This document shows, piece after piece, positions 11,344 to 41,429 of a DNA stretch of 50,333 nt. Origin of the DNA: Mycobacterium syngnathidarum (GTDB lineage: Bacteria; Actinomycetota; Actinomycetes; Mycobacteriales; Mycobacteriaceae); NCBI RefSeq assembly GCF_001942625.1, contig NZ_MLCL01000083.1:1-50333 (forward strand). Reading direction: 5' to 3'. Position numbers and translations under genes: made by a program. The notes below the pieces were generated by a model, which saw only the letters and a list, made by a program, of their open reading frames with translations, was not told the origin of the DNA and ran no database searches. Positions within the stretch are counted from its first letter, which is position 1. Each line of letters starts with the position of its first letter.

Positions 11344-11374
11344 AGTGTGTCTCGAGCTCCTCGCATGCGCGGCC

Positions 11375-11842
11375 TCACGGACGCAACTCGATTACCGTCT
11401 TACCGATTCGAACCGGTGTTCCGATCGAAACCCTTACCGCTGTTGTCACCTTCGCCCTGTCAAGGTATGTGCCGTTGGTCGATCCTAGGTCTTCGACGTA
11501 CCACTCCGAACCTCGTGGCGAGAGACGGGCGTGGCGCGTCGAAGCGTAATCATCGGTGAGCACCAGGGTGGAGTCGTCGGCACGGCCGATCAGCACCGGC
11601 TGGGCACCCAACGTGATGCGGGTCCCGGCCAGCGCGCCCTCGGTGACCACCAATTGCCGCGCGATATGACGCCCGTCCCGGCTCGGAAGCAGGGAACCGC
11701 GGAGCGCCAATCCCCGGCGGACCATCACGGCGCCCGTCGGCGCGTAGATGTCGGTTCGCAAGATGCGCAGCACCGACCAGATGAACAGCCACAGCAGCAG
11801 GAGGAATCCGACGCGCGTCAGTTGCAGCACTAACCCCTGCAT
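11375..11842 (-). CDS. fhaB: FHA-domain protein FhaB (FipA)
   Basis: A 155-residue protein with an N-terminal membrane helix (VGFLLLLWLFIWSVLRIL), a short linker and a C-terminal forkhead-associated domain. That domain contains LIGRADDSTLVLTDDYASTRHARL and DLGSTNGTYLD, the Arg and Ser/Asn residues that bind phosphothreonine. Family knowledge: FhaB/FipA bridges FtsZ and FtsQ and is a PknA/PknB substrate. The ATG at 11842 is chosen over an in-frame start at 11869 because it gives exactly the family length and has GGAGAGGA about 6 nt upstream. Confidence 0.95.
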   Translation of the reverse strand: MQGLVLQLTRVGFLLLLWLFIWSVLRILRTDIYAPTGAVMVRRGLALRGSLLPSRDGRHIARQLVVTEGALAGTRITLGAQPVLIGRADDSTLVLTDDYASTRHARLSPRGSEWYVEDLGSTNGTYLDRAKVTTAVRVSIGTPVRIGKTVIELRP

Positions 11843-11974
11843 CTGACGTCCTCTCCGTATCCGCCCCACTGGTATCGCTCAGCTACCGTCGGCAACGTCA
11901 CGATACTTGGACGCCGATCGCCGTGAGGGCGAAGCCGCGCGCTTGCCACTCAGGTGTGTCCGGTCTCGCAGGGC

Positions 11975-17315: not shown

Positions 17316-19352
17316 GTGTGCAGGCCAGTGTCGGCCTGTGCACCTCAGGAGTTCGCGCTGTTCGAGCTGCCGGAGCACGTGACGCGCAGCGATCACGTCC
17401 GGCGGGGATTTGGTGTTCTGATGCCCGATCTGTATCCCGTCGACGATGCCGACGACGCGGATCCCAGGCTGGCACCACTGCTGGCCTGGCGTCAGCGACT
17501 GGTCGACTCCGGCGCGGTGGCGGCGCGCAGTTTCAAAGAGGCCCATCTGCGGCTCGTGCTCCGGTCCGGGCGCACCGATGTCGAGCAGATCCGGGAGATG
17601 CTGCCCGGATCGGTCGCCGAGCATGCCGACGAGATGGCCAGGCTGCTCGCCGAGCTCGAATCCGGGGCCCCGGTCAATGCGCCCGAGCCTCGGGAACCCG
17701 CGGCCGGTGAGGTGCGCGCCATCGCATTCCGCCACGATCCGGCCCGCCCCGGCGTCGTCGATCTCAGCTGGCCCGACTACCAGGCCAACGGGGGAGTGGT
17801 GCTGTACCGGGTGGTCAGCGGCGACGACCGGGAGCCCAAATCCCCGGAAAACGCTGACCTGGTCGCGGCCACACCGTTGTCGGCTGCCAGTGACGACCGG
17901 CCGTTGACCGGCCCGGTGCGCTACTACCAGGTGTGGGTCATCACCGGGACGTCTCGCTCCGACGCCCTGAGCACCCGGCCGGTGCTGTACGCCAGTGCGG
18001 TCATGGTTCCACCGGTCAGCGACGTAGCCGTTCGCGAGGACAACGGCCTGGTCATCGGAAAGTGGACGGCGCCCCCGACGTCGAGTTCGGTTCACGTGTA
18101 CCGCATCCCGATGGACGACGCGGCCGATGTATCCGGGATCGACGAGGCGCAGTACCGCATCCTGGCCGACGGCGAGCACCGGACAGGTTTTGTCGATTCC
18201 GCAGTGACGCGGGGGGTCCGATACCGCTATCGGGTGCGCTGCGCCGTCGACCTCGACACAGGGGTGAAGCTCTCCGAGCCCGTCGACGCCGACGTCGAGG
18301 TGTCGGCGGTGCTGTCGGCGGTCACCGACATCACGGTCGATACCGGATTCGACGGCGAAACGTTCGACGTGTCGTGGGCTGCCCCGGGAGCTGAGGTGGC
18401 GGTCTACCTCAGCCAGACCGGTCCGAGCGCCGGAGGGGCGGCCACCGAGCTTCCGGAGAAAGCACTCGATCAGGTTGGGCTCACCCCGGACCTGCGGCTG
18501 CGCGGGCCGGTGACGGATCAGCCGCAACCCGACGGCACCCACCGCTCCCTGATGGCCGGGGTGGCCTGGCCACAGGGCTGGAGCCGGGCCTACCTCACGC
18601 CGGTGACGATCCTGGCCGGACACGCGGTGCTGGGCCGGACGGTGTCGGCGGTGCGCACCGGCACGATCCGTGACATCGAGCTCGTCGAGTACTGCAACAA
18701 GCAGGTGCTGACCTTCGAGTGGCCCGACGGCGCCGCCGGTGTGGTGGTGACCCTGGCGGCCAAGGGCCACGACCCCCGCGCCGGCCTGACCGGCCGGTCT
18801 TTCGAGATCTCGCTCGAGGATTACGAGAAGTACGGCGGTATGCACCTGACCGGTGCGCTCCCGGTGGGTGGCTGCTCGTTGCACCTGGCGCCGGTGGCGT
18901 TCTCCGGCGGCCGGCGAGTGACCGGTCCGGTGGCCAGCATCGAGTATCCCGGCATGCTGCGGCTGCAGTACGCGGTGCGAATTGGCCGCGACCCCAATGG
19001 TTTCCCCACCACCGCCACCGTCGCGGTGCGTTCCGAACACGACCTTCCGGGCTCGCCCTCGTTCGTGTTGGTCAACAATCCTCAGCGGATGCCGTTGAGT
19101 GTGCACGACGGCCAGCCGGTGGATGTGGCGCCGCTGGATGCGCAGGGACAGTTGGCCGACCAGCCGTCCAAGCAGTTGCGCTGGACGGCGCTGACCGCAT
19201 CGGGCAGTGGCGAGCTGTGGGCCGCCAATGTCAGTGGCCTGCAGGGCTGGATTCGGCTGTTCCTGGACATCCCGGATCCCGTACAGCTGCGGACCGTTGC
19301 GCTGCTGGATCCGCCGGTGCAGACCCTGCAGCTCACCGCGACAGTCTTATGA
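17316..19352 (+). CDS. Fn3-like beta-sandwich protein, first gene of a GTPase-associated operon
   Basis: Up to 678 residues. A helical N-terminal part (LLAWRQRLVDSGAVAARSFKEAHLRLVL, then VEQIREMLPGSVAEHADEM) resembles a small adaptor domain. It is followed by repeated beta-sandwich units of Fn3 type. Each has strands such as VDLSWPDYQANGGVVLYRVV, PVRYYQVWV, VIGKWTAPPTSSSVHVYR, VRYRYRVRC and FDVSWAAPG. There is no signal peptide or membrane segment. GTG 17316 opens the frame but lacks a good ribosome site; GTG 17379 and ATG 17421 are in-frame alternatives, so the start is unresolved. The stop overlaps the next gene's ATG (ATGA). I infer a scaffold or sensor partner for the following GAP1-like protein and GTPase. 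Confidence 0.75.
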   Translation: MCRPVSACAPQEFALFELPEHVTRSDHVRRGFGVLMPDLYPVDDADDADPRLAPLLAWRQRLVDSGAVAARSFKEAHLRLVLRSGRTDVEQIREMLPGSVAEHADEMARLLAELESGAPVNAPEPREPAAGEVRAIAFRHDPARPGVVDLSWPDYQANGGVVLYRVVSGDDREPKSPENADLVAATPLSAASDDRPLTGPVRYYQVWVITGTSRSDALSTRPVLYASAVMVPPVSDVAVREDNGLVIGKWTAPPTSSSVHVYRIPMDDAADVSGIDEAQYRILADGEHRTGFVDSAVTRGVRYRYRVRCAVDLDTGVKLSEPVDADVEVSAVLSAVTDITVDTGFDGETFDVSWAAPGAEVAVYLSQTGPSAGGAATELPEKALDQVGLTPDLRLRGPVTDQPQPDGTHRSLMAGVAWPQGWSRAYLTPVTILAGHAVLGRTVSAVRTGTIRDIELVEYCNKQVLTFEWPDGAAGVVVTLAAKGHDPRAGLTGRSFEISLEDYEKYGGMHLTGALPVGGCSLHLAPVAFSGGRRVTGPVASIEYPGMLRLQYAVRIGRDPNGFPTTATVAVRSEHDLPGSPSFVLVNNPQRMPLSVHDGQPVDVAPLDAQGQLADQPSKQLRWTALTASGSGELWAANVSGLQGWIRLFLDIPDPVQLRTVALLDPPVQTLQLTATVL

Positions 19353-21808
19353 CCTCGCGCTACGGCCAGCTCGCCTACACGTCGTTCGATGCCGTCGGGA
19401 ATGTCGGTGGCTGGCAGGTCAAGGAAACCAGCGGCGATCTGACGCCGGAGGAGACGCAGGCCTTGATCGCCGGGGTTCGCACGGTGTTCCGTCCGGTGGG
19501 GCAGATACCCGATTTCCCCACCCCTGAGCAGCTTGAGCAGGGCCCTCGCCGGCTGGCCTACCGCCATCTGGCCGAAGGCGCCGGCTACTGGCACACCTTC
19601 CCGGCCGGGTCGGACAGTATGGGCCGGCCGGGCAACGTATTCGCCCACGTGCTGTTGGATCGGGCACCCGACACGCACCCGCGTTGGCGGGCCATCGAAC
19701 GGTGGCGGTCTGCGCACTGGCTGCAGCCTTACGGTGCCGCCGCGGTGGCCCGGGCCGTGCTTCCCGGGGTGCTGCCGGAGGTGGGCGGCGCGGTGACCAA
19801 GGACAGCGTGGTGGCGTTCGCGTTGGATACCGCCACGTGGCGGTTGGCGACGCTGTTCGCGTTGTTGGATGCGGTGGCCGCGGCGCTGGCCGGCGGGCCT
19901 CCGGTGGTGCTGGGCGTGCAGTCCCCGGACACGGCAGCGCAGTGGATCGGCCTGGTGAGTTTCCTGATGTCCCCGGGCACCGCTGCGGGCTTGAGCTTTT
20001 CCACGTTCGATCGCGCCGAGCAGGTCGCGCCGCACAACGGGCAGGTGCTGAGCGCGGTGCCGGTGGGGGATGTGGCCGCTATCGAGCCGGGCATGGTGGT
20101 GATCAGCGAGTCCGAGACGGTGTCGCTGGGTGAGCTCGGCGGTGATCCGCACCGTACCGCCGGTGGGCACCGCATCGAGGTGACGCGGTGGTCGGTGATG
20201 GCGCAGGTGGTGCTGCTCGATGCGGCGTCGGCCCGCCGCGTGCTCGACGACATCGACACGTTCTCCACCCAGGTGCGTGATGACGGGTTGCATCCGGCGT
20301 GGCCGATGGCGATGGCGGTGGCCCGGCACCCGGAGTTCGCCGACGCGCAGGCGGAGGCCCATGAGGTGATCGCCGCGCATTCGCCGCCGGGTGCGCTGGT
20401 CGGGTCCGAGGCCGCGCACACCATCGCCGACGTGCTCTCGGCCATGGTGGGCGCTACGACGGGCGACGCGTGGCGGGCCGTGCACGAGTTGCCGGACGGA
20501 GCGGGTGCGGCCTTCGCCGATGCCACCTACTTCGCCAGGGCGATTGCCGATGACGCGTGGTTGACCCAAGACGGCCCAATTCCTTTGGGGCCGAGAATGT
20601 TTCACGGGAAACCAACACCTTCGGCATTGCGGAAGGCGATCGGGCCGGCCATAGAGGATAGCAGGACACACGGGCCCGATCGATTGCTGCGGGTTGTCGA
20701 CCTGTTGTTGCGGGCCGGAGTCGCCGACGACCGGTTGGTGACGGCGTTGACCGAGGGCGTGCTGCCGGCTCTGGCGGATCCGGGGGTGCGTGCGCGGATC
20801 GGTGCCGCGGACCGGCTGTCGCTGGCGGTGTGGTTGCTGCGCGACGGTGACACCGGGGGCAACGCCATCGCTGACGACGTGCTGGACTGGCTGGCCGAGG
20901 CGGCCGCTGTGCCCGAGCCCGCAGAGCTCGCCGAAGCGCAGCCGTGGGATCCGGTGTGGATCTGCGCCGCGCTGCGTGGGCTGCGGTCGCGGCGGCACGG
21001 GCCGCAACTGGCCGGCGATCTCGGTGCGCAGCTGTGGTGGCTGCGGATCACCGAGCCCGAGCACTTCGCTGCCGCGGCTGCGGCCTCGGTCTGGAGCCCG
21101 TCGGATCTGCTGCTGGCCATCGGAGCCGAGCCGCTGCCCAGGATGGCCGCACTGCGAACCCTGGTGGGGGCGGCGGATTCGGTCGCGTTGCGCCGGCTGG
21201 CCGGCAAGGTGATCGAGGACAACGGTGACAACGTGGCGGTGGCGTGCGCCGCGGTACGCCACGTCGAGCCGCAGGAGTGGCTGCACAAGGGCTATCTGCA
21301 CACGCATCAGAGCTCCTATGTGCCGCTGTGGGATCACGTGCTGGCCGGATTGGAACCGGCGTCCGTGCACCCGGATTTCTCGGTGCGGCTGCTGGCGTTC
21401 GCGCTGCTGGGTGTGCTCACCGGTCAGCCGTATCCGCAGGCCTGCAACGATCTGGTCACCGAAAACGGTTGCGGCGCACAGGCGGTGGCCCGAGTGCTGC
21501 CGCTGGTCGACGGCGGCCGGCTGGCGCCGGTGACGGTGGTGGCGATCAGCCTACTGAGAAGCGCCGCGGCCGAGTCCGGCGCCTATGTGCTCGACCCGGT
21601 CGATGAGCTCGCCGGAACGCTGGCCGCCCAGGTGGCGGCCACCATGGGCGGCACCGACGCGGAATCCGTGGTGGGGTTGATGGCGCAGTTGTCGGGTGAT
21701 GCCTCTGAGGGGACGATGCGCGGATACCGCAAAATGGTGAACAGACTGCTGACGCGCCGGGGCGAGCACCCGTCGCTGGCGGAGCGACTGAGGGGGAGCC
21801 GGGGCTGA
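19349..21808 (+). CDS. GTPase-associated protein 1 (GAP1)-like protein
   Basis: An 819-residue protein. The N-terminal domain (about 1-170) carries RYGQLAYTSFDAVGNVGGWQV, RRLAYRHLAEGAGYWHTF, and GSDSMGRPGNVFAHVLL. This pattern recalls the GAP1-N2 domain ('QL.Y.S', 'GWQ', 'Y..L..G', 'GR.GN.FAH.L'). A middle region (about 180-330, with VVLGVQSPDTAAQWIG and AAGLSFSTFDRAEQ) and a long alpha-helical C-terminus would correspond to GAP1-M and GAP1-C. These domains are named for their association with GTPases in predicted bacterial conflict systems; biochemical activity is unknown. ATG 19349 overlaps the upstream stop, and the next ATG is 1 bp after this stop. Confidence 0.75.
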   Translation: MTSRYGQLAYTSFDAVGNVGGWQVKETSGDLTPEETQALIAGVRTVFRPVGQIPDFPTPEQLEQGPRRLAYRHLAEGAGYWHTFPAGSDSMGRPGNVFAHVLLDRAPDTHPRWRAIERWRSAHWLQPYGAAAVARAVLPGVLPEVGGAVTKDSVVAFALDTATWRLATLFALLDAVAAALAGGPPVVLGVQSPDTAAQWIGLVSFLMSPGTAAGLSFSTFDRAEQVAPHNGQVLSAVPVGDVAAIEPGMVVISESETVSLGELGGDPHRTAGGHRIEVTRWSVMAQVVLLDAASARRVLDDIDTFSTQVRDDGLHPAWPMAMAVARHPEFADAQAEAHEVIAAHSPPGALVGSEAAHTIADVLSAMVGATTGDAWRAVHELPDGAGAAFADATYFARAIADDAWLTQDGPIPLGPRMFHGKPTPSALRKAIGPAIEDSRTHGPDRLLRVVDLLLRAGVADDRLVTALTEGVLPALADPGVRARIGAADRLSLAVWLLRDGDTGGNAIADDVLDWLAEAAAVPEPAELAEAQPWDPVWICAALRGLRSRRHGPQLAGDLGAQLWWLRITEPEHFAAAAAASVWSPSDLLLAIGAEPLPRMAALRTLVGAADSVALRRLAGKVIEDNGDNVAVACAAVRHVEPQEWLHKGYLHTHQSSYVPLWDHVLAGLEPASVHPDFSVRLLAFALLGVLTGQPYPQACNDLVTENGCGAQAVARVLPLVDGGRLAPVTVVAISLLRSAAAESGAYVLDPVDELAGTLAAQVAATMGGTDAESVVGLMAQLSGDASEGTMRGYRKMVNRLLTRRGEHPSLAERLRGSRG

Positions 21809-21809
21809 C

Positions 21810-22967
21810 ATGAGCAAATGCCCGCGGTGCTTCACTCTGCTGAGCCCGAACAATCACCTGTGGACGCTGCCGGCCCAGGCCGGTGGCACCCGCTATCGCG
21901 ACGACGTCGCCTCTGCATATGTCGGTGCGCCCGCCGACTGCGGCCCGCTCTACACCTGGACCCGCGCGCCGGGCTACAACGGCCCGCCGCCGCCGGGGTC
22001 GGAGGCCAGCCGGGCGTTGCAGGGGCACGCGGTGGAGATCTGCCCGACCTGCCACTTCACGCTTCCCGACGGTTTTCGGGAGGGGCATGCCATCTGCATC
22101 GCGCTCGCCGGCGCACGGGCGACCGGCAAGAGCCTCTATATCGCGGTGCTGGTCAAGCAGCTCGAGCTGTTGTGCGAGCGCTTCGGTGTGTTGATGGAAC
22201 CGGTCACCCGGGCCACCGCGCAAAACTACGCCACCAACTACGAGGGACCGCTGTACGTACAGCGGGGCCTGCTGCCGCCCACTCCGACGGTGCACACCCA
22301 GGCCCCGAATCAGCGTGAGCCACTGGTGTTCTCGATCGGTGTCTGGCACGGTGTGCGTCGCTTCCTGGTGCTGCGGGATGTGGCGGGCGAGGACCTGGAG
22401 AACGGTGATCTGCGGGCCCCGCCCTTCCAGTTCTTCGCCCACGCCGACGCGGTGTTCTTCATGTTCGACCCGCTGCGGGTCAAAGCCATTCGCGATCAGC
22501 TGCAGGACCTACTACCGCCCCAGCCGTTCAGCGGCGGTGAGCCGCGATCGGTGTTGGCCAATCTGCTGATGGCGGTCAACCCGGGCCAGCCCAAGCTCGC
22601 GGTGATCTTGTCCAAATTCGATGTGCTGCGGGCGCTGCGTGACGTGCAGGGTTCGGAATGGGCCCTGGTCATGTCGAATGGGGGAGCGGCGTTCCTGCGC
22701 GACACCTCCGACGGCAAGCGCTACGACGACGTCGACGGTCAACTGCTCGACCAAGAGGTGCGCAGCCTTTTGGTCCGGCTGCACGGCGGCTCGATCGTGG
22801 CCGGCGTCGAAAATCCGTCCTCGGGTCCGCGGTTGGCCAGCCGGTATTTCGCGGTGTCGGCACTCGGCCATGCACCCACCGGAAACCGTCTGCACGCCAG
22901 GGGCATTGCCCCGTTCCGGTGTGTGGATCCGGTGCGTTGGGTGACCTCGCAGTTCGGTGTGCTCTAG
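21810..22967 (+). CDS. Zinc-ribbon P-loop GTPase (double-GTPase/TRAFAC-like)
   Basis: A 385-residue protein. It opens with an atypical split zinc ribbon: CPRC (Cys4, Cys7) and CPTC (Cys78, Cys81). A P-loop NTPase follows, with Walker A GARATGKS (101-108), a switch/Walker-B-like strand FLVLRDVAGED (Asp190, Gly193), the strand AVFFMFDPL and a guanine-specificity motif SKFD (268-271). This order fits TRAFAC-class GTPases of the 'DO-GTPase2' kind that occur next to GAP1 proteins. No membrane segments are seen. It is the last gene of a three-gene operon with 1-bp spacing. Nucleotide preference is inferred from SKFD and should be treated as likely, not proven. Confidence 0.78.
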   Translation: MSKCPRCFTLLSPNNHLWTLPAQAGGTRYRDDVASAYVGAPADCGPLYTWTRAPGYNGPPPPGSEASRALQGHAVEICPTCHFTLPDGFREGHAICIALAGARATGKSLYIAVLVKQLELLCERFGVLMEPVTRATAQNYATNYEGPLYVQRGLLPPTPTVHTQAPNQREPLVFSIGVWHGVRRFLVLRDVAGEDLENGDLRAPPFQFFAHADAVFFMFDPLRVKAIRDQLQDLLPPQPFSGGEPRSVLANLLMAVNPGQPKLAVILSKFDVLRALRDVQGSEWALVMSNGGAAFLRDTSDGKRYDDVDGQLLDQEVRSLLVRLHGGSIVAGVENPSSGPRLASRYFAVSALGHAPTGNRLHARGIAPFRCVDPVRWVTSQFGVL

Positions 22968-25322: not shown

Positions 25323-25706
25323 GCTCTGCTCCTGTTAGGACTTTTGTTGCGGTATGTCCCGCGTTGGGAGGAACGCTATAGCAAGAACCGTAGCGATGCA
25401 ACAGTTTGATCCGAACCGCAGCGGTGCAACGCTACGGAAATTTGCAAAGGTAACGATGCTCGATCACCAGCGAAAAGGGTCTTTGGATCTAAAACCGCAC
25501 GTCAGAACGCTGATGGGTACCCCGTTGTACCCGTAGCGTGAGCGCGGTTTGAGCGCGAGGGAAGCCGTAGCGTCGTGGTTGTTTGCTACGAATGCGAAAA
25601 ACCCAATGCGTAGCGGTGCTGCGGTCTGGGGTTAGGATTGAGGCGTCCCGGCAACCGCTTCAGCACCTGGCTGAGGCTGAGCACATTGGCGAGGAAACAG
25701 CCCCGT
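25323..25706. promoter_or_regulatory. Repeat-rich divergent regulatory region between whiB5 and the HTH regulator
   Basis: No gene is seen in these 384 bp. A 17-bp imperfect direct repeat, AACCGYAGCGRTGCAAC, occurs at 25386-25402 and 25414-25430. Further copies of its CGTAGCG core or the reverse complement appear near 25430 (GCTACGG), 25531 (CCGTAGCGTG), 25564 (CCGTAGCGTC), 25585 (GCTACG) and 25609 (CGTAGCGGTGC). Local base composition is less GC-rich than the flanks. This looks like a multi-site operator controlling one or both divergent regulators. Confidence 0.6.
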
Positions 25707-28007: not shown

Positions 28008-28399
28008 GCCTGAATCTCCTCACCGAACTCACACACGGGAACTTTGAACGTGCTCAAGTATCGACTACAACGCGTCCGGCTTGCATGATCCGTCCACAAT
28101 CGGCCCGAAATTACGGTGCAGCAAATTTGTGTGGCAAACCTCCGCCCGCTCCGATCCCGCAGCCGAGGGTGCCCGCGCAGGTGTCGCCCGGGCCCCTGCA
28201 CCTGCCCCATGGCGCGCGCCACGCAGTATTGCTTGCCGCCTGCCCTCAGCGGTCGGCGAAACGATCGCTCAACTGCGATAAATCGAGGTCGAAGGATGTC
28301 CCGGGAGGCTCGGTCCAGGTGGTCGGAAGGGTCGAAATTGGTGCGCTGACCGGGTCAGATGCGCTGGTAATCTCTGTTCCGGCGAAGGGGATACGGGGC
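28008..28399. promoter_or_regulatory. Divergent intergenic region before espE
   Basis: There are 392 bp between the minus-strand ATPase and the espE-like gene. An open frame continues leftward from espE to about 28085, but its product is compositionally unlike the EspE protein and has no convincing ribosome site. I see no clear sigma-A promoter or strong inverted repeat. ESX-1 regulators (EspR, PhoP, WhiB6) would be expected to act here, but no site can be asserted by eye. Confidence 0.4.
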
Positions 28400-29959
28400 A
28401 TGGGACTGCTGGGCGATATTGCCGATTTCGGCAAAGGCGTGATCGAGAACAACGTGAAGTGGACCGAGCGCGCCGCCGAGGTCGGAGAGTTCATCGTCCG
28501 CAACACCGTGGGCGCCGAACTCGAGCAGGCCGGCAGGTTCGGCGGCCAGATCGTCGACCTCAGCCAGAAGGCCGCCAGTTTCTTCGCATCCCAGATCGGC
28601 CAGCGGCTGATCAGGGCCGCCCGTTCGCCCGTCCTGGCCGCCGGTCAGCAGACCATCGAGTCGATGAAGCACAGCACCGGAGTCGGCGAACCGGAGACCG
28701 GGCAGCGCTTCGGCGACGGGGCGGACAAGCTGGACGCGGCCGGGCAGGTGCTGGCGGCGGCGTTCCCCGACGACAGCTGGAACAGCGGAGGTGCCAGCGC
28801 CTACGCCGGCCGCAACACCGAGCAGGTCGGGCGCGTTCAGACCATGCTCGGGCTGGACAACACGGTGGCCGGAGTGCTTTCCGCCGAAGCCGATCAGATC
28901 GCGGCCACCCGCGACAGCCTCGACGGGCACTCCGACTGGTTGGGCGCGATGAGCCTGCTCACCACCACCACGGGCATCATTCCGGGTTTCGGGACGGCCG
29001 CTCAGATGTCAGCCGAGGTCGCGATGGTCGCCAAGGCGGTCAGCGATTCCAGCCGCGATCTCAAGACCTTGGGCGGCCAGATCGATCAGAACGCGGCCGT
29101 ATTACGCACCGCGGCAGCGCAATACGAGACCCTTGCCGGTGGCGCCGCCCCTGTCGGCGCGGAGTTCGCGCCCCCGGTCGGTGACCCGCAGGCCCCCACC
29201 CGAGCGACAGACACAGAGGCAGATCCAGAGTCCGTGGCGCCCGCCTCCACGGGTGGCGGCGGCTCCCCTTCCGGTGGAGGTGGGCCGTCGGGCGGCAGTG
29301 CTGGTGCACCCGCCGGCTCGTCGGGGCCGGTTTCGGCTCCCGCGACGCCGTCGACCACGCCGGCGGCCGCGGCGCCTCCCTCCTCACCTGCGGCCTCCGA
29401 AGCAGCTGGTGCGCTCGGCGGGCTTCTGGGGTCATTGGTGAGCCCACTCGGCGGAATCCTGGGCGGCGTACTGCAGGCCGCCGGCCAGGCGGCGACCCAG
29501 GCGGCACAGATGGGCAGTCAGGCGGCCGGGCAGCTGGGGAGCCCCGCGGCCGGTGCGGCCCAGCTCGACAAAGCGTCGGACATCGCCGACGCCGCAACCG
29601 ACGGCCACGACCGGGAGGACCGCGACGGCCGCGACAAAGACGACAAAGACGACCAAGACGAGAGGGACGACAAGACGGAAGGCGAAGGCACGGACGGCGA
29701 GCCCGAACAGGGTCGGCCCGACGGCTCGGCCGGGGCGGATTCGGCGGGTGGACCGGCTGATCCGCTGGGCGCGGGTGCCGATGAGGAGACCGCCAAGACA
29801 CTTCCGCCCGACCTCGAAGCGGTGGCCGCCGGCCGTGGCCTCGCGGGCCAGGCTCCGGTGCATGTCGGGGCGGATTTCGAGCAGGGCCAGCTGCATATGG
29901 CAGCGGCGGCTACATTAGATCGCGGTGTACCCGGATCTGCGGCCGTGATCGACAGGTAA
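28400..29959 (+). CDS. espE: ESX-1 secretion-associated protein, EspE-like
   Basis: A 519-residue substrate-like protein. The N-terminal half is helical, with a WXG-like turn in DDSWNSGGASAYAGRN, then SAEADQIAATRDSLDGHSDWLG and a hydrophobic segment LLTTTTGIIPGFG. A Gly/Ser/Ala/Pro-rich linker (about 255-345) and Gly/Gln/Ala-rich helices (LLGSLVSPLGGILGG) follow. The tail is highly charged, Asp/Lys-rich (DDKDDQDERDD), and ends in a short conserved-looking segment. Position just before espF and espG1 supports EspE (Rv3864). EspE localises to the pole or surface in other mycobacteria. The ATG at 28400 is the best start, but its ribosome site is weak. Confidence 0.72.
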   Translation: MGLLGDIADFGKGVIENNVKWTERAAEVGEFIVRNTVGAELEQAGRFGGQIVDLSQKAASFFASQIGQRLIRAARSPVLAAGQQTIESMKHSTGVGEPETGQRFGDGADKLDAAGQVLAAAFPDDSWNSGGASAYAGRNTEQVGRVQTMLGLDNTVAGVLSAEADQIAATRDSLDGHSDWLGAMSLLTTTTGIIPGFGTAAQMSAEVAMVAKAVSDSSRDLKTLGGQIDQNAAVLRTAAAQYETLAGGAAPVGAEFAPPVGDPQAPTRATDTEADPESVAPASTGGGGSPSGGGGPSGGSAGAPAGSSGPVSAPATPSTTPAAAAPPSSPAASEAAGALGGLLGSLVSPLGGILGGVLQAAGQAATQAAQMGSQAAGQLGSPAAGAAQLDKASDIADAATDGHDREDRDGRDKDDKDDQDERDDKTEGEGTDGEPEQGRPDGSAGADSAGGPADPLGAGADEETAKTLPPDLEAVAAGRGLAGQAPVHVGADFEQGQLHMAAAATLDRGVPGSAAVIDR

Positions 29960-29991: not shown

Positions 29992-30303
29992 ATGGCGGGT
30001 GATTTGCGGGTTGCCACCGCTCATTTGCACGAGCTATCGGCCAAGCAAGGCCAGGCGGCGACCAGCTTGGCCGCGGCCACCGGAGTTGTCGACGGGGTCG
30101 ACGCTTCGGTGCGCGTCACACACGGGCCGATTTCGTCGTCGACGGCGGCGGCCGTGGCGGCCGCGCTGCACGCGCGTCGGGCTGCGGGTACCGGTATGGC
30201 CAGGGTGTCGCTGGACCTCGGGGAGAAGCTCACTCGCGCAGCGGGGGGCTACGACCACACGGATTCGACGACGGCCGGCGCCCTCCGCGGAACCGTTCGG
30301 TAG
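29992..30303 (+). CDS. espF: ESX-1 secretion-associated protein EspF
   Basis: A 103-residue protein, exactly the length of M. tuberculosis EspF. It is a small helical-hairpin protein of the DUF2580/ESX-target type: LRVATAHLHELSAKQGQAATSL, a turn at VRVTHGPISS, then a second helix ending GEKLTRAAGGYDHTDSTTAGAL. The 'Y..TD' near the end resembles the YxxxD secretion signal. It lies 32 bp after espE and 10 bp before espG1, in one operon. It is expected to be co-secreted with EspE or other ESX-1 substrates. Confidence 0.85.
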   Translation: MAGDLRVATAHLHELSAKQGQAATSLAAATGVVDGVDASVRVTHGPISSSTAAAVAAALHARRAAGTGMARVSLDLGEKLTRAAGGYDHTDSTTAGALRGTVR

Positions 30304-30313
30304 GGGAGCACTG

Positions 30314-31162
30314 ATGACCAATTCCTTCAGCGCTGACGCCAACACCGCGGCGATCGACGATGTCGTCGGGGCCGAACTGACCATCGACGGAATCCTCGTC
30401 GTAGCCGACAAGCTGGGCCTGACCGATTTCCCGCCATCGATGGGAATCCGGTTGAACATCCCGCAACCCGACCTGCGCAAGGTCGTGTGGGAGCAGGTTG
30501 AGCGCGATCTCACGGCTCAGGGGGTGCTGGACGTCTTCGGCAACCCTCACCCGGAGGTGGCTGCAATGCTCGACACCTTGAGCCGGCCCGAACGCACGTT
30601 GGAGGGGCGCTGGTGGCGTCGCGACGCGGGCGGGAAGATGCTCCGGTTCGTGGTGTGCCGCAAGGGTGGTCGGCACGTGGTCGCCGCCCGCGACAACGAC
30701 ATGCTGGTGCTGCAGCGGGTGGCCGCGCAGGTGGGTCTGGCGGGCATGGTGACAACCGTGCTCGGTGAAGGCATGCCGGCCAGCGTCGAGCCGTTGACCG
30801 GCGTCGCCGAGACCCTGGCCAACTGCCGGACAGCCGACGAGCTCACCGGTTACGGCATTCCGCCGACCTCGGCACGGGTATACGCCAACATCATCTCCGA
30901 GCCGGAGAGCTGGGTGGAGCTCGTGGTGTCCGAGCGGAACCCGGGCGGCACCACCTCTCAGGTCGACGTGGCAGCGGGAGTGCTCGATTCCAAGCAGGGA
31001 CGCATCGTGTCCATCCCGCGCCGGGTGAACGGGGAGCTCTACGGCAGCTTCCTGACCGGCACCAGGGACAATCTGCAGCGGGCCCTTGACGCGCTGGTCG
31101 AGTTCCTGCCCTCGGGCTCGTGGTTCGACAAGTCCGAGCCGGACAGCTCCTACCTGCACTGA
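30314..31162 (+). CDS. espG1: ESX-1 specific chaperone EspG1
   Basis: A 282-residue EspG-family protein (283 in M. tuberculosis). It opens VVGAELTIDGILVVADKLGL, followed by the beta-sheet region TLEGRWWRRDAGGKMLRFVVCRKGGRHVVAARDND. The C-terminal helices end ALDALVEFLPSGSWFDKSE. EspG binds the tip of the PPE partner in PE-PPE dimers and keeps them soluble for delivery to the channel; here its likely clients are PE35/PPE68. The ATG at 30314 follows AGGGGAG at an ideal distance. A longer open frame begins at 29999 inside espF in another frame and is not real. Confidence 0.93.
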   Translation: MTNSFSADANTAAIDDVVGAELTIDGILVVADKLGLTDFPPSMGIRLNIPQPDLRKVVWEQVERDLTAQGVLDVFGNPHPEVAAMLDTLSRPERTLEGRWWRRDAGGKMLRFVVCRKGGRHVVAARDNDMLVLQRVAAQVGLAGMVTTVLGEGMPASVEPLTGVAETLANCRTADELTGYGIPPTSARVYANIISEPESWVELVVSERNPGGTTSQVDVAAGVLDSKQGRIVSIPRRVNGELYGSFLTGTRDNLQRALDALVEFLPSGSWFDKSEPDSSYLH

Positions 31163-31176
31163 AAGAGGCCGCCACG

Positions 31177-31734
31177 GTGGGTGACTTTCCGCCACATCAT
31201 CCGGACGACGATGACGATTATCAGGATCTCTCGGCGCTGGACTTCGCGTCCTCGGACGACAACTCGGACGCAGCGGCTCTGGATGCGCTCGGAACGTACG
31301 ACGACGACGGTGTCGTATTCGGCGACCCCGCGTCGGACGACACAGACAGCGGCGACGGTGGGGACTCGGAGGAATCTGTCGACGAGGACGAGAACCTTGC
31401 GGTGCCGCTGTTCACCGTCACCAACCCGCCAGAAACCGTCACGGTGACGGCTTTCATGGACGGTCGGGTCCAGCAGATCGAGCTGGCACCCAAAGTCACC
31501 AACCTGACCGAACGGGATCTCGCCGAGGAGATTCTCGTGATCGCGGGCCTGGCTGCTCAACAGGCCAAATCCGCGCAGTACTCGTTCATGCTCGCAGGCA
31601 TGCGTGAGCATGGGCACGACGACGCGGCGACCCGCGACTTTCTGACCCGCGACCTGGATCTGCTCACCCCAGAGCAAGCCGATGATGCTCGGGCCCAGGT
31701 CTTTTCGACTCGCTATGGAGGCGATCATGGTTGA
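31177..31734 (+). CDS. espH: ESX-1 secretion-associated protein EspH
   Basis: A 185-residue protein (183 in M. tuberculosis). The N-terminal half is strongly acidic and presumably disordered (VGDFPPHHPDDDDDYQDLSA). The C-terminal domain reads PPETVTVTAFMDGRVQQIEL, APKVTNLTERDLAEEILVIA, then TRDFLTRDLDLLTPEQADDA. EspH is cytosolic and needed for EspE/EspF export in related species. The start is a GTG at 31177. The last 8 bp overlap eccA1. A second gene with the same domain lies at 44661. Confidence 0.9.
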   Translation: MGDFPPHHPDDDDDYQDLSALDFASSDDNSDAAALDALGTYDDDGVVFGDPASDDTDSGDGGDSEESVDEDENLAVPLFTVTNPPETVTVTAFMDGRVQQIELAPKVTNLTERDLAEEILVIAGLAAQQAKSAQYSFMLAGMREHGHDDAATRDFLTRDLDLLTPEQADDARAQVFSTRYGGDHG

Positions 31735-33451
31735 CCACCTCGCTGGGATGTTCGGCTCGGCAGTCGGGATGCTGAGCAGTTCCCCGGCCCGTGCGCTCGA
31801 GATATTCACCGAGATCACCAATTACGACGAATCCGCGTGTGATGGGTGGGTCGGCCGGATCCGCTGCGGCGACAACGATCGCGTGACGCTGTTCCGGGCC
31901 TGGTATTCGCGCTCGAACTTCGGCCAGCTGGCCGGTTCGGCCGAGATCTCGATGAACAGTGTCGGTGCGAGGATCCCCATCGGTGGCATCTACGGCAAGG
32001 ACATCTCCTACCCGATCAACTCACCGCTGTCGATCACCATGGGCTTCGCCGTGCAGGAGGCCGCAGAGGGCAACTATGCCGATGCGATGGAGGCGTTGGA
32101 AGACGCCCCGTCCGCCGGTTCCGATCATCTGGTGGCCTGGGTCAAGGCCGTGATCTACGGTGCGGCGCAACGCTGGACGGATGTCATCGACCAGGTGCGC
32201 GGCGCCGATCACTGGCCGGACAAGTTCCTTGCCGCCGCGGCCGGGGTGGCACACGGGGTGGCGGCGGCCAACCTGGGGCTGTTCACAGAGGCTGACCGTA
32301 GGCTCACCGAGGCCAATGACACACCGGCCGGCCAGGCGTGTGCACCGGCCATCGCGTGGTATCTGGCGATGGCCCGGCGCTACCAGGGCAACGAGGAGTC
32401 GGCCCAGGTGCTGCTGGAGTGGCTGCAGGCGAACTTCCCGGAGCCCAAAGTCACTGCCGCACTGCGTGATCCAGCTTACCGGCTGGAGACCATCACCCCC
32501 GAGAAGATCGCCGCCCGCACCGACCCCTGGGATCCTTCCAGCGTGGTGGCCGACACCTCCGGGCGGGACAGGCTGTTGGCCGAGGCGCAGGCGGAGCTGG
32601 ACAAGCAGATCGGGCTGGGCCGGGTCAAGGAACAGATCGAGGCCTACCGGGCGGCCACCCAGATGGCCAGGATCCGTGCTGCGCGCGGTATGAAGGTGGC
32701 CCAGACCTCCAAGCACATGATCTTCGCCGGCCCGCCGGGTACCGGTAAGACGACGATCGCGCGGGTGGTGGCCAACATCCTGGCGGGTCTCGGGGTCATC
32801 GCCGAGCCGAAGCTGATCGAGACGTCGCGTAAGGATTTCGTCGCCGAGTACGAGGGTCAGTCGGCGGTGAAGACGGCCAAGACGATCGACCGGGCGCTGG
32901 GCGGTGTGCTGTTCATCGACGAGGCTTACACCTTGGTGCAGGAGCGCGACGGTCGCGCCGACCCGTTCGGCACCGAAGCACTGGATACCCTGCTGGCCCG
33001 GATGGAGAACGACCGCGACCGGTTGGTGGTCATCATCGCCGGGTACAGCAACGACATCGATCGCCTGCTGGAGACCAACGACGGCCTGCGGTCGCGGTTC
33101 GCCACCCGCATCGAGTTCGATTCGTACTCGCCCGATGACATCGTCGAGATCACGAAAGTCATTGCCAAGGCCAATGATTCACAGCTGGATGACGAGGCGG
33201 CCAAGCGGGTCCACGAGGCGGCGAGCCTGCTGAGCCAGCGCACACTCAACGGCAAGCCGGCGCTGGACATCGCCGGCAACGGGCGCTACGCCCGGCAGCT
33301 GGTGGAGGCCGGTGAGCAGAACCGTGACATGCGGTTGGCCCGGTCGCTGGACTTCGAGAACCTGGGCGTCGAACAGCTCAGTGAGGTCAACGGAGAAGAC
33401 ATGGCAGCGGCGATCGCGGGAGTTCATGCCCGCCTGAACATCGGCGGATAG
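31727..33451 (+). CDS. eccA1: ESX-1 AAA+ ATPase EccA1
   Basis: A 574-residue protein. The N-terminal TPR-like half contains [20 protein letters not shown] and [20 protein letters not shown]. The C-terminal CbbX-type AAA+ domain has Walker A GPPGTGKT (335-342), Walker B VLFIDEAY (Asp398, Glu399) and sensor/arginine-finger stretches [14 protein letters not shown]. It is a cytosolic ATPase thought to drive substrate-chaperone disassembly. The ATG at 31727 has GGAGG upstream and gives the family length; an earlier in-frame ATG at 31682 lies inside espH. It overlaps espH by 8 bp and is 2 bp from eccB1. Confidence 0.96.
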
Positions 33452-33453
33452 CG

Positions 33454-34896
33454 ATGGCAGGTTTCCGGCTCACCACCAAGGTCCAGGTCAGCGGCTGGCG
33501 TTTTCTGCTGCGACGCGTCGAGCACGCCATCGTGCGCCGGGACACCCGGATGTTCGACGATCCACTGCAGTTCTACAGCCGCGCGGTGTTCGCCGGCATC
33601 GTGGTCTCGATACTGATCTGCCTGGGCGCGGGCCTGATGGCGTATTTCAAGCCGCTGGGCAAGCGCGGCACCGACCAACTCGTGGTGGATCGCACCACCA
33701 ACCAGCTCTACGTGATGCTGTCCGGCAGCAATGTGCTGCGGCCGGTGTACAACCTGACGTCGGCTCGGTTGGCCCTCGGCAATTCGGGCACCCCGTCGGC
33801 GGTGAAGTCCGAGGAGCTCAATCGGATGCCCAAGGGGCAGCCGATCGGTATTCCGGGTGCGCCGTATGCCACGCCGACGGGCGTGCCCGCGTCGCGCTGG
33901 ACGCTGTGTGACACCGTCGCCAAGCCGGACAGCTCGGCGCCCAAGGTGGAGTCTTCGATCCTGATCCGTTCGCTGACAACGGATTCCGCCGTCGGCCCAA
34001 TGGGTCCGAACCAGGGCATGCTGGTGTCCTTCGAGGGGGACAACTGGCTGGTTACCGCCGACGGCCGGCACAGCATCGACCTGTCCGACCGGGCGGTGAG
34101 CTCCGCGGTGGGCATCCCGGTCACCGCCAGGGCCACCCCGGTGTCCGAAGGCCTGTTCAACGCACTGTCGAACATGGGACCGTGGCAGCTGCCGATGATC
34201 CCGGCCGCCGGTGCGCCGAATACCGTTGGGCTGCCGGAGAATCTGGTGATCGGGTCGGTGTTCCAGACGGCCACCGAATCCGAACCGCAGCATTACGTGG
34301 TGCTGCCGGACGGGGTGGCCCGCGTCAACCCGACCACGGCTGCGGCCTTGCGCGCCACCAACTCTTACGGGTTGTTGCAGCCGCCGTCGGTCGAGGCCAG
34401 CGTGGTCGCCAAGATCACCGAGCGGGTGTACGGCTCGCCGCTGCCGGACAAGCCGCTCGAGGTGTTGCTGCGTCAGGACTCGCCGGTGCTGTGTTGGGCC
34501 TGGCAGCGGGAACCGGGCGATCAGGCACCGAAGACCAGCGTCATCGCGGGCCGTCGCCTGCCGCTCCCGTCGTCTGCGGTCGGCACCGGCATCGACCAGA
34601 TCGGCGGTGACGCAACGGTGTACATCGAAGGCGGCCAGTTCGTCCGCCTGCAGTCACCGGATCCCCGGGTGGGCGAGAGCCTGTATTACATCGACCCGCA
34701 GGGAGTGCGGTACGGCGTGGCCAATGACGACGCCGCGAAAAATCTGGGCTTGTCGGGTGCGGTGAATGCACCGTGGCAGGTCGTGGGGCTGCTGGTGGAG
34801 GGCCCGGTGTTGTCGAAGGATGCAGCGCTGCTCGAGCACGACACGCTGCCCGCCGACCCGAATCCGCGCAAAGTCGAAAGCAAGCAAGGCTCATGA
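33454..34896 (+). CDS. eccB1: ESX-1 core membrane protein EccB1
   Basis: A 480-residue protein, matching the family length. It has the conserved cytosolic start [22 protein letters not shown], one membrane helix (about 44-65) and a large periplasmic domain of repeated beta units. That domain contains [44 protein letters not shown] and [10 protein letters not shown]. EccB forms the periplasmic part of the T7SS channel. Two Cys (in TLCDTV and VLCWAW) probably form the disulfide of the family. Its stop overlaps eccCa1 (ATGA). Confidence 0.96.
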
Positions 34897-37121
34897 CGAC
34901 CAAGAAATTCACCCCGACCATCAAGCGGGGGCCGCGGCTGACACCGGGTGAGATCAACGTCGCCGCACCAGATGACCTCGGCATCGACATCCCGCCCTCG
35001 GGCATGCAGAAAGCCATGCCCTGGGTCATGGGTGGCTGCATGATCGGCATGATCGCGATCATGATCTTCACCGGTGTGCGTCAGCTGTCCCCGTACATGC
35101 TGATGATGCCGCTGATGATGATCATGGGCACGGTCGGTTTCATGTCCAGCGGTGGCGGCGGCGGCAAGAAGGTCCCCGAAATCAACGCCGACCGCAAGGA
35201 ATACCTGCGATACCTGGCCGGCCTGCGCACCCGGGTGACCGCGTCGGCGTCGGCTCAGGTGGCGTTCTTCGGTTACCACGCACCGCATCCCGACGATCTG
35301 CTGTCGATCATCGGTACGCACCGGCAGTGGTCGCGGCAGGCCAACTCGGATTTCTACGCCGCAACCCGGATCGGTATCGGCGCCGAGATCGCGGTGGACC
35401 GGCTGCTCAAGCCGAACACCAGCGGGGAGCTGGCCGGTCCACAGGGTGCGCCACAGCCGCACCTGGAGCCCGTCAGCCACATGTGGGTGACCAAGTTCCT
35501 GCGCACCCACGGCCTGATCCAGGATTGCCCGAAACTTGTTCAGCTGCGGACATTTCCGACCATCGCCGTCGGCGGTGACATCCAGGGCGCGGCGGGGCTG
35601 CTGACCGCGATGATCTGTCATCTGGCGGTGTTCCATCCGCCAGACCTGCTGCAGATCCGGGTGCTCACCGACAACCCGGAGGACCCGAACTGGTCGTGGC
35701 TCAAGTGGTTGCCGCACGCGCAGCACCAGACCGACACCGACGCGGCCGGGCCCACCCGGCTGGTCTACACCCGGCCCGACGGCCTGAGCGATCTGACCGC
35801 ACGCGGCCCGCACAGCGCCGACTCGGTGCCCGGCGGCCCGTATGTGATCGTGGTGGACCTGACCGGCGGCAAGGCCGGCTTCCCGGTCGACGGCCGGGCC
35901 GGCGTCACCGTGCTCACCCTGGGCAACCACCGCGGCTCGGCCTACCGGCTGCGGGTCGACGCGGACGGCACGGCCGACGACAAGCTGCCCAACCAGAACT
36001 ACCGCGAGGTGACGCGAGTCGTCGACCGGATGACCCCGGCGCAGGCCGGCCGGGTGGCCCGCAAGCTTGCCGGCTGGTCGATCACCGGCACGATCATCGA
36101 CAAGAACGTCCGGGTGCAGAAGAAGGTCTCCAAGGAATGGCACCACCTGGTCGGCGCCAAGTCGGTGGAAGAGGTGACCCCGGCGCGTTGGCGGATGTTC
36201 ACCGACACCGACCGGGACCGGCTCAAGATCCCGTTCGGCCACGAGCTCAAGACCGGCGAGGTGATGAAGCTCGACATCAAGGAGGGCGCCGAGTTCGGTG
36301 CGGGCCCGCACGGCATGTTGATCGGGACCACCGGTTCGGGCAAGTCGGAATTCCTGCGCACCATGATCTTGTCGCTGGTGGCCACCCACCACCCCGACCA
36401 GATCAACCTGCTGCTCACCGACTTCAAGGGCGGTTCGACCTTCCTGGGTATGGAAAAGCTCCCGCACACCGCGGCTGTCGTGACCAACATGGAAGAGGAA
36501 GCCGAGCTGGTCGGCCGTATGGGCGAGGTGCTCACCGGTGAGCTCGACCGTCGTCAGCAGATCCTGCGTCAGGCCGGCATGCAGGTCGGTGCCGCCGGTG
36601 CGCTGTCGGGTGTGGCCGAGTACGAGAAGCACCGCGAGCGTGGTGCGGACCTCCCGCCGTTGCCGACGCTGTTCGTGGTGGTCGACGAGTTCGCCGAGCT
36701 GCTGCAGAACCATCCGGACTTCATCGGACTGTTCGACCGGATCTGCCGCGTGGGTCGCTCGCTGCGGGTGCACCTGCTGCTGGCCACCCAGTCGCTGAAC
36801 ACCGGCGGTGTCCGCATCGACAAGCTCGAGCCCAACCTGACGTACCGAATTGCGTTGCGTACCACCAGCTCTGCGGAGTCCAAGGCGGTGATCGGCACAC
36901 CGGAGGCGCAGTACATCACCAACAAGGAGAGTGGTGTCGGGTTCCTTCGGGTGGGCATGGAAGACCCGGTGAAGTTCAGCACCCTCTACACCGGCGCCAA
37001 CTACGTGCCCGAGGTGGAGGATTCCGGGGACGGTGAGGCCAGGCCTCGCGAGAAGCGCCAGACCCGTTTGCGCATCCACCAGTTCACGACGACCCCGATC
37101 TTCGATACGGCGGTGAGCTAG
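34893..37121 (+). CDS. eccCa1: ESX-1 FtsK/SpoIIIE ATPase subunit EccCa1
   Basis: A 742-residue protein. It has two membrane helices near the N-terminus (about 45-85, rich in Met), a DUF-type ATPase-like region, and an FtsK/SpoIIIE domain. That domain has Walker A GTTGSGKS (478-485), [12 protein letters not shown] and Walker [12 protein letters not shown]. It energises substrate export and links EccB/EccD to EccCb1. As in other ESX-1 systems, EccC is split into two genes here. The ATG at 34893 overlaps the eccB1 stop; the frame extends upstream but within eccB1. The eccCb1 ATG is 2 bp after the stop. Confidence 0.96.
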
Positions 37122-37123
37122 CC

Positions 37124-38875
37124 ATGAGTACTGACGCCGAACCCAGGGTGTTGCGCGAGGTCGTCCTCGAGCAGCTGGGCACCGGTGAGAGCCGCGCCTA
37201 CAAGATGTGGCTGCCGCCGCTGACCGACCCGACACCGGTCAATGAACTGATCGAGCGTGACTACCAGCGCGCGCCGTTGCGTTTCGCGCTGGGAATCATG
37301 GACGAGCCGCGCCGGCACCGGCAGGACATCTGGGGCGTCGACGTCTCGGCGGCCGGCGGCAACATCGCGATCGGCGGTGCGCCGCAGACCGGGAAATCGA
37401 CGTTCCTGCAGACGCTGATGTTGTCGGCCGCGGCCACCCACACGCCGCGCCAGGTGCAGTTCTACTGCATCGATCTCGGCGGTGGTGGCTTGATGTACAT
37501 GGAGGATCTGCCGCATGTGGGTGGCGTGGCCACCCGCGCCGAACCCGACCGGGTCAACCGGGTGGTGGCCGAGGTCAAAGCGGTGCTGAGGGCCCGCGAG
37601 CAGGTGTTCAAGCAGTACCGCGTCGGCTCGATAGCGTCCTACCGCGAGATGCGGGACGACCCGAACAACGCGGCCGCGCAGGATCCGTTCGGTGACGTGT
37701 TCTTGGTGATCGACGGCTGGCCGGCCTTCGTGGCCGAGTTCCCCGATCTGGAACCGGCTGTGCAGGATCTGGCCGGTCAGGGTTTGGCGTACGGCGTGCA
37801 TGTCATCATCTCCACGCCGCGCTGGACGGAGCTCAAGTCACGTGTGCGCGATTACCTGGGCACCAAGGTGGAGTTCCGTCTGGGTGACGTGAACGAGACC
37901 CAGATCGACCGGATCACCCGCGATATCCCGGCCAATCGTCCGGGTCGTGCCGTCTCCCTCGAGAAGCATCACCTGATGATCGGGGTGCCCCGGTTGGACG
38001 GTGTGCACAGCGCCGCCAACATCGTCGACGCCATCTCGGCGGGCGTGCAGCAGGTGGCCGCGCGTCACACCGATCAGGCACCGCAGGTGCGGGTGCTCCC
38101 GGACCGGATCTACCTGCATCAGCTCGACCCGAACCCGCCGGGACCGGATTCGGATTACCGGACGCGCTGGCAGGTACCGCTGGGGCTGCGCGAGTCGGAC
38201 CTCACGGTGGCCTACAACCAGATGAACTCGACGCCGCACCTGCTGATCTTCGGCGCTCCCAAGTCGGGCAAGACCACGATTGCGCATGCGGTGGCCAAGG
38301 CGATCTGCAGTCGCAACAGCCCCGATCAGGTCAGGTTCATGCTGGCCGACTACCGGTCGGGCCTGCTCGATGCGGTGCCCGAGTCGCATTTGCTGGCGGC
38401 CGGCGCGATCAACCGCAACAGCGCCTCGCTGGAGGAGGCGATCAAGGCGCTGGCGACCAACTTGAAGAAGCGGTTGCCGCCGCCGGACCTGACCACCGCG
38501 CAGCTGCGGGCGCGGTCATGGTGGAGCGGGCCCGACATCGTGCTGCTGGTCGACGACTGGCACATGATCACCGCCGCCGCCGGCATGATGTCGCCGATGG
38601 CGCCGCTCGGTCCGCTGCTTCCGGCAGCCGCCGATATCGGCTTGCACGTCATTGCGACATGCCAGATGAGCCTGGCGCACCGGGCAACGATGGACAAGTT
38701 CGTCGGCGCCGCCTACGGCGCCGGTTCGCCGACTTTGTTCCTGTCCGGCGAGAAGAACGACTTCCCGTCGCGGGAGATCATTGTCAAGAAAAGGCCGCCT
38801 GGCCAGGCATTTATGGTCGCGCCGGACGGCAAGGAGGTCATTCAGGCGTCCTATGTCGATCCGCCCGCCGAATAA
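37124..38875 (+). CDS. eccCb1: ESX-1 ATPase subunit EccCb1
   Basis: A 583-residue soluble protein with two FtsK-type ATPase domains. Walker A motifs are GAPQTGKS (85-92) and GAPKSGKT (377-384), with Walker B-like LVIDGWPAF and VLLVDDWHM. The second-domain pocket binds the C-terminal signal of EsxB in the well-studied systems. In both Walker B motifs a Gly or Asp-Asp replaces the usual DE pair, typical for the degenerate ATPase domains 2 and 3 of EccC. It is 180 bp from pe35, the largest gap so far within the cluster, with a hairpin between them. Confidence 0.96.
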
Positions 38876-40808: not shown

Positions 40809-41111
40809 ATGGCACAGATGAATACAGATGCCGCCGTCCTCGCCAAGGAGGCTGGTAATTTCGAGCGCATCTCCGGTGAGCTCAAGAGCGTCATCGCACA
40901 GGTCGAGTCGACCGGTGGCACCTTGGCCGCTCAGATGCAGGGTCAGGCCGGCACGGCCGCTCAGGCGGCGCTCGCCCGCTTCCACGAGGCTGCTGACAAG
41001 CAGATCCAGGAGCTGAACGAGATCTCGACCAACATCCACACCTCGGGTACTCAGTACACGAGCACCGACGACGATCAGGCCGGCAACCTGGCCTCGTCGA
41101 TGAACATCTGA
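40809..41111 (+). CDS. esxB: ESX-1 substrate EsxB (CFP-10)
   Basis: A 100-residue WXG100 protein, the usual length. Helix one (DAAVLAKEAGNFERISGELK) and helix two (AQAALARFHEAADKQIQELNE) flank the turn. The C-terminal signal YxxxD is YTSTD (83-87), which docks on EccCb1. The turn reads AQMQGQAG, so the canonical WXG Trp at position 43 is Met. It forms the 1:1 secreted dimer with EsxA, encoded 30 bp downstream. Confidence 0.97.
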   Translation: MAQMNTDAAVLAKEAGNFERISGELKSVIAQVESTGGTLAAQMQGQAGTAAQAALARFHEAADKQIQELNEISTNIHTSGTQYTSTDDDQAGNLASSMNI

Positions 41112-41141
41112 CCTAACTGACCTCGAGAACGGAGACAAGAC

Positions 41142-41429
41142 ATGACAGAACAGGTTTGGAATTTCGCCGGTATCGAAGGTGGCGCCAGTGAGATCCAGGG
41201 CGCCGTCAGCACCACCGCCGGCCTGCTGGACGAAGGCAAGGGCTCGCTCGCTGCGCTCGCCTCGGCGTGGGGTGGCTCGGGTTCGGAGGCCTACCAGGCC
41301 GTTCAGACCCGTTGGGACAGCACCTCCAACGAGCTGAACCAGGCGCTGCAGAATCTCGCCCAGACCATCAGCGAGGCGGGACAGACCATGTCCCAGACCG
41401 AGGCCGGCGTCACGGGAATGTTTGCCTGA
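41142..41429 (+). CDS. esxA: ESX-1 substrate EsxA (ESAT-6)
   Basis: A 95-residue WXG100 protein, identical in length to M. tuberculosis EsxA. It starts [20 protein letters not shown]. The canonical turn is [12 protein letters not shown] (Trp43, Gly45), followed by the second helix and a flexible C-terminus [11 protein letters not shown]. It is the secreted partner of EsxB and is implicated in membrane interaction in pathogens and in conjugal DNA transfer in M. smegmatis. A long hairpin follows the stop. Confidence 0.98.

Follow-up and report, generated by a model that had tools for sequence, protein, structure and literature searches.

The likely saeABC operon of Mycobacterium syngnathidarum as a probable reduced core of a larger tubulin-type GAP1-N2 system

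We analysed a 50,333-nucleotide stretch of Mycobacterium syngnathidarum DNA (contig NZ_MLCL01000083.1; hereafter the window), which carries a compact operon of three + strand open reading frames (ORFs; 17316-19352, 19349-21808 and 21810-22967). An initial annotation, made from the letters alone, had proposed that these genes form a conflict or signalling system composed of a fibronectin type III (FNIII)-like protein, a GAP1 protein and a GTPase. The best explanation, to which we assign a probability of roughly 0.7, is that the operon is saeABC, serving the assembly of the type VII secretion system ESX-1, and that it was cut down from a larger tubulin-type GAP1-N2 system. Because relatives of the genes are so named and an ESX-1 locus begins approximately 5 kb downstream of saeC, the operon is most likely SaeABC and not a free-standing conflict system. 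The three genes are as follows.

saeA, 17421..19352, + strand: probable FNIII-type protein, 643 amino acids from the ATG at 17421 (ORF open from a GTG at 17316, 678 amino acids)
saeB, 19349..21808, + strand: GAP1-N2 and GAP1-M head followed by a long alpha-helical, solenoid-like C-terminal part, 819 amino acids
saeC, 21810..22967, + strand: zinc-binding TRAFAC-type GTPase, 385 amino acids, with GARATGKS, DVAGED and SKFD motifs and cysteines C4/C7/C78/C81

The ORF coordinates agree with the initial description of the junctions: saeA and saeB share an ATGA overlap (saeA stop at 19352, saeB start at 19349), and a single base separates saeB from saeC (stop at 21808, start at 21810). For the first gene, ATG 17421 is a more probable start than GTG 17316, since many close relatives are 642 amino acids long. 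The three are not chance ORFs, because homologues at E ≤ 0.001 number at least 659 for SaeC, 192 for SaeA and 280 for SaeB, and because the ratios of nonsynonymous to synonymous substitution (dN/dS) against four relatives are low (saeC 0.03-0.05; saeA 0.13-0.14; saeB 0.14-0.21). All three genes are thus under purifying selection, which is strongest in saeC. As had been noticed from the start, there is no effector gene in the operon; nor does the ORF list of the window place a tubulin, von Willebrand factor A (vWA), membrane or other accessory gene in it.

Relatives of each gene (52-91% identity) carry the names SaeA, SaeB, SaeC or ESX-1 scaffolding and assembly, all by transferred annotation; a SaeB relative (P0356) and a SaeA relative (P0225) are examples. 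NCBIfam yielded no name for the function of the trio. Wirth et al. in 2012 (Mol Microbiol 83:654) reportedly found SaeABC to be needed for polar assembly of ESX-1. An A-B-C unit beside ESX-1, the arrangement that defines the SaeABC locus of M. smegmatis, is present in the window and likewise in its relatives. With that locus the window trio shares the names on relatives, the gene order A-B-C and the place beside ESX-1. Judged from these database names and the reported finding of Wirth et al., a scaffold function of SaeABC is likely. SaeC of M. smegmatis is UniProt A0QNH6 (PMC8525676). According to PMC9118679, which cites Wirth 2012, EccCb1 is located at the old cell pole in M. smegmatis.

What, then, was the larger system? 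In relatives the trio is embedded in a longer operon. At locus L074 the order is vWA-like, Tubulin_2 (g1), two-transmembrane (g2), saeA, saeB, X, saeC and a PknH_C-type gene, and the additional products have the following properties.

vWA-like protein, 1015 amino acids: VWA_2 at 1.1e-4, under the cut-off (23.3 versus 27 bits)
g1, Tubulin_2 protein, 1183 amino acids: 8.4e-47, with a long C-terminal part
g2, two-transmembrane protein, 879 amino acids: two predicted transmembrane stretches (hydropathy scan), Pfam matches only below threshold
X, 309 amino acids: no Pfam match over the cut-off; its DSSASM stretch looks by eye like a vWA metal site

The transmembrane count of g2 and the PknH_C match were made on L016, a close relative of L074. 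Neighbours related to g1 and g2 accompany the trio in Pseudarthrobacter, Arthrobacter, Curtobacterium and a Bifidobacteriaceae metagenome-assembled genome (L049-L052) too, and X is present by similarity in the first three. Kaur et al. 2020 (PMC7159879) predict GAP1-N2 systems that include a tubulin theme, and the longer operon fits this theme. The tubulin-theme systems share with the trio a GAP1-N2/GAP1-M protein, a DO-GTPase-like GTPase with N-terminal zinc-binding cysteines and a probable FNIII protein; the full relatives additionally resemble these systems in their vWA-like proteins and in a Tubulin_2 protein whose C-terminal part is long. In contrast, the window operon has no tubulin, vWA, membrane or effector gene, and its GTPase retains only four of the cysteines. 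Unlike those systems as described, it adjoins a type VII secretion locus, and neither 'esx' nor 'type vii' occurs (0 each) in the text of PMC7159879. By these comparisons, the genes kept in SaeABC appear to form the core of a larger tubulin-type GAP1-N2 system (vWA-like, Tubulin_2, two-transmembrane, saeA, saeB, X, saeC) that survives elsewhere.

Downstream of saeC at L034-L038 and L057 we observe relatives of the L016 PknH_C-type protein in tandem, 3 to 5 per locus, with some counts limited by contig ends. These genes may be the part of the full system that varies. At L057 and L075 (genome G250, which lacks ESX-1) the system is full and its saeA and g2 frames are interrupted; this copy may be decaying, or the interruptions may be sequence errors.

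The distribution of the two forms follows the ESX-1 flank. We typed 73 loci as three-gene (31) or full (42, duplicates and partial loci counted); for L021 a short fragment match was overruled by hand. ESX-1 flank genes accompany 30 of the 31 three-gene loci, the exception (L019) running off its contig, and the evidence is espE or espG1 themselves in 16 and PNPOx, pirin or MinD-like neighbours in the rest. Only three of the 42 full loci (L016-L018) have such a flank. A SaeB plus SaeC tree of 60 rows requires no fewer than two changes of gene content and no fewer than three of the flank, and a single clade of three-gene loci is rejected (approximately unbiased test, p-AU 1.85e-5, 56 rows). The nearest relative of the window by SaeB and SaeC is Mycolicibacterium senegalense (93% identity), which would probably place the window in the M. 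fortuitum group. On this phylogeny the three-gene form appears to have arisen at least twice, both lineages having an ESX-1 flank. We infer loss rather than gain, which is the simpler direction because the outgroups carry full systems. This would also explain the missing effector: the full system would have lost its accessory genes at least twice, in lineages at the ESX-1 flank. Their loss suggests in turn that ESX-1 took the place of the original client of the system. Both forms can coexist near ESX-1: in Mycobacterium sp. DL99 a full copy lies approximately 14 kb upstream of a three-gene copy on the same contig (L013 and L020).

We surveyed 248 genomes of the genus, using EccCb1 (window ORF 37124-38875, identity of at least 73%) as the marker of ESX-1. 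SaeC occurs in 44 genomes and EccCb1 in 137; both are present in 35, SaeC only in 9, ESX-1 only in 102 and neither in 102. The co-occurrence is modest (35/44 versus 102/204, p = 4e-4, kinship ignored). Distance can be read only where both genes share a contig, the remaining genomes having them on different contigs; eccCb1 lies downstream of saeC on the same strand at 14.6-19.3 kb in 20 genomes and at approximately 35 kb (up to 35.1) in two. Single copies in G181 and G003 and a second copy in G122 are far from eccCb1 on a shared contig. Orthologues of g1 (identity of at least 67%) and of g2 were found in one and the same set of 22 genomes, each of which carries SaeC. A genome-wide search of the 22 trio-only genomes for g1 and g2 returned no orthologue of either; the two genes have therefore not merely moved. 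At the typed loci, X likewise occurred with full relatives only. ESX-1 is present in 22/22 SaeC genomes without g1 versus 13/22 with g1 (Fisher p = 0.0014, kinship ignored, the trio-only subset having been singled out after the loci had been seen). Short C-terminal remnants of saeC lie in G097 (C166:53151-53285) and G134 (C135:85327-85479), one with a stop, and suggest past loss. More widely, 13 of the 150 genomes sampled from the order have GAP1-N2, as does one of 14 control genomes (Corynebacterium glutamicum).

Several observations weigh against reduction in the service of ESX-1. The co-occurrence rests, on the tree, on about two independent events. SaeC is absent from 102 of the 137 ESX-1 genomes and ESX-1 from 9 of the 44 SaeC genomes, and neither therefore depends on the other. 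In L016-L018 a full system persists at an ESX-1 flank, so linkage alone does not force reduction. Nor is the loss perfectly clean: the trio-only genome G249 has a weak g2-like match (103 residues, E = 1.1e-4) that contains a stop, and in several trio-only genomes other ORFs contain stretches weakly similar (30-34%) to 133-140 residues of g1; none of these matches were counted.

Could the trio still be an autonomous GAP1-N2-type conflict or immune module, near ESX-1 by linkage only and with its effector encoded elsewhere? It contains the same core families as the systems predicted by Kaur et al. 2020 (PMC7159879), it is patchily distributed, and some genomes have a second full copy. We nevertheless regard this as unlikely, given the genome-wide absence of g1 and g2 from the trio-only genomes, the presence of ESX-1 in all 22 of these, and an FNIII-type protein that is not fast-evolving here (dN/dS 0.13-0.14). 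PADLOC models gave no match at E ≤ 0.01 to the three trio and four accessory proteins. We rejected a free-standing defence system on the grounds of this result, the lack of an effector in the operon and the absence of the accessory genes. The component families named by the initial annotation (a GAP1-N2 protein, a DO-GTPase-like GTPase and a probable FNIII partner) stand, while an autonomous conflict system is not supported for this copy, given the SaeA/B/C names, the position 14.6-35.1 kb upstream of eccCb1 in 22 genomes and the absent accessory genes. The phyletic survey that it had called for reveals a patchy distribution (44/248 genomes) where universal vertical conservation with a housekeeping role would have spoken against it; the reported role is in secretion.

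A general scaffold of the growth pole or envelope, whose client is not specifically ESX-1, would account for SaeC without ESX-1 in 9 of 44 genomes, for the related operons in Pseudarthrobacter, Arthrobacter, Curtobacterium and Bifidobacteriaceae, and for the tubulin-like and two-transmembrane proteins of the full systems; it is improbable in our judgement, as in both lineages the three-gene form goes with the ESX-1 flank. That the operon is a functionless, decaying remnant of a former full system is very improbable: broken copies do occur elsewhere (the saeC remnants of G097 and G134, the saeA and g2 frames of G250), but the window genes are all open, coupled and under purifying selection, with GTPase motifs intact.

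In SaeC the motifs reported initially (GARATGKS at 101-108, SKFD at 268-271, and a zinc ribbon split into the CxxC pairs C4/C7 and C78/C81) are all in place, together with DVAGED (190-195), and among 30 aligned SaeC sequences G101, T105-S108, D190, G193, E194, K269-D271 and the four cysteines are invariant. By eye, the zinc ribbon has four cysteine knuckles in the distant relatives L050 and L051 and two in mycobacterial SaeC; the cysteine surplus of the former fits two zinc ribbons, of which residues 1-90 of the latter retain the first and last CxxC. The window protein scores below the Pfam cut-off for DO-GTPase2 (20.2 versus 27 bits), whereas 27 of the 30 aligned members match it at E ≤ 0.01 (best 8.5e-9) and the L051 GTPase exceeds the cut-off (31.7 bits). 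In SaeB, both GAP1-N2 (E = 1.4e-14, 54.8 bits) and GAP1-M (E = 1.3e-11, 45 bits) are over their cut-offs of 24, confirming the GAP1-N2-like motifs first seen in this 819-residue protein. SaeA is a probable FNIII-type protein. The window protein has no Pfam match, and fn3 is matched weakly by 3 of 22 relatives (best E = 0.019), so that the initial Fn3 label is weak; two relatives (P0130, P0229) carry the NCBI name 'fibronectin type III domain-containing'. Sequence searches of the PDB gave chance-level matches only, with best E-values of 0.75 for SaeC, 0.39 for SaeB and 0.057 for SaeA (a COP9 signalosome subunit; Fibcon, an FN3 consensus protein, at 0.72). A partial second saeB (76% identity) lies between PNPOx and pirin at L012 (11646-12287).

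The predicted model of SaeC has a G-domain fold and resembles YcjX and Rag/Gtr GTPases, many other small GTPases scoring within 1-2 Z; the N-terminal zinc domain sets SaeC apart from them. For the SaeB head there is a weak and uncertain likeness to DENN-module GTPase regulators, whose core would be a Longin plus DENN-type fold, and to TagF, the repressor of the type VI secretion system (Foldseek E = 0.05 for TagF); the scores are close to those that the search tool describes as usual for models lacking a clear match. In the mechanism we consider most likely, of which the switch, binding and placement steps are inferred, SaeC would cycle between GDP and GTP as a nucleotide switch, the SaeB head would bind and regulate SaeC while its solenoid carries partners, and SaeA would be a bridging beta-sandwich. 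Together the three might mark, or hold, the pole at which ESX-1 is assembled. It is tempting, if rather doubtful, to go further: the predicted GAP1/DO-GTPase conflict systems might at root be spatial assembly modules, in which a Rag/YcjX-like SaeC is worked by a DENN/TagF-like regulator on the SaeB solenoid and places membrane machines at a cell site. Mycobacteria would then have removed the tubulin, membrane and other genes from such a module on two occasions and put the remaining core to work in building ESX-1, which would parallel, in bacteria, the logic of DENN-Rab and FLCN-Rag.

PNPOx, pirin, helix-turn-helix (HTH) and MinD-like genes lie between saeC and the ESX-1 locus of the window, for which a partial set of ESX-1 genes was looked for. 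A PPE gene is also within the locus, and the other features are listed here.

26502-28007, - strand: MinD/ParA-like gene (CbiA 1.8e-8), adjoining espE and found in the flank of many ESX-1-linked loci
28085..29959, + strand: espE-type gene, the first recognised ESX-1 gene (EspA_EspE 1e-22)
29999..31162, + strand: espG1-type gene (EspG 5.7e-50)
31682..33451, + strand: eccA1 (EccA1 N-terminal domain 7.4e-97)
33454..34896, + strand: eccB1 (8.3e-161)
34773..38875, + strand: two FtsK/SpoIIIE ATPase ORFs, read as eccCa1 (start uncertain) and eccCb1 (37124-38875)
40809..41429, + strand: two ORFs of 100 and 95 amino acids, read as esxB and esxA by eye from translations
42990..44522, + strand: eccD1 (EccD 6.7e-32, YukD 1.7e-17)

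In the second trio clade a forkhead-associated (FHA) gene directly follows saeC (L027 at 11261-12301, L029, L030, L064-L066), and at L047 (12509-13369) such a gene is one ORF further away. By profile it is FHA-HTH in L027 and L066, and its C-terminal part is approximately 38% identical to the HTH protein at 25638-26489 of the window. A related FHA-HTH gene (approximately 35%) occurs in the clade of the window on the ESX-1 side of the MinD-like gene (L002, 17926-18933; L003, 17977-18978; L012, 18335-19345), and the window has no match to it.

In the open-licence literature, outside which most subscription papers lie, we found no paper joining SaeABC with GAP1-N2/DO-GTPase systems or GAP1 with DENN. 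The same literature yielded no account of SaeABC as descended from a tubulin-type GAP1-N2 system through repeated reduction beside ESX-1, and nothing on what SaeABC does; the passages in which Wirth is cited lack any detail on Sae, and the main text of Bitter 2009 does not contain 'sae'. The work on SaeABC in ESX-1 assembly and the comparative genomics of GAP1-N2/DO-GTPase systems thus appear to be two unjoined bodies of work. If the core is shared, the M. smegmatis operon would be a tractable handle on a widespread bacterial GTPase family that, as far as we found, has been approached by comparative genomics only, and the conflict reading of the GAP1-N2/DO-GTPase family would gain a rival, namely GTPase-controlled placement of membrane machines.

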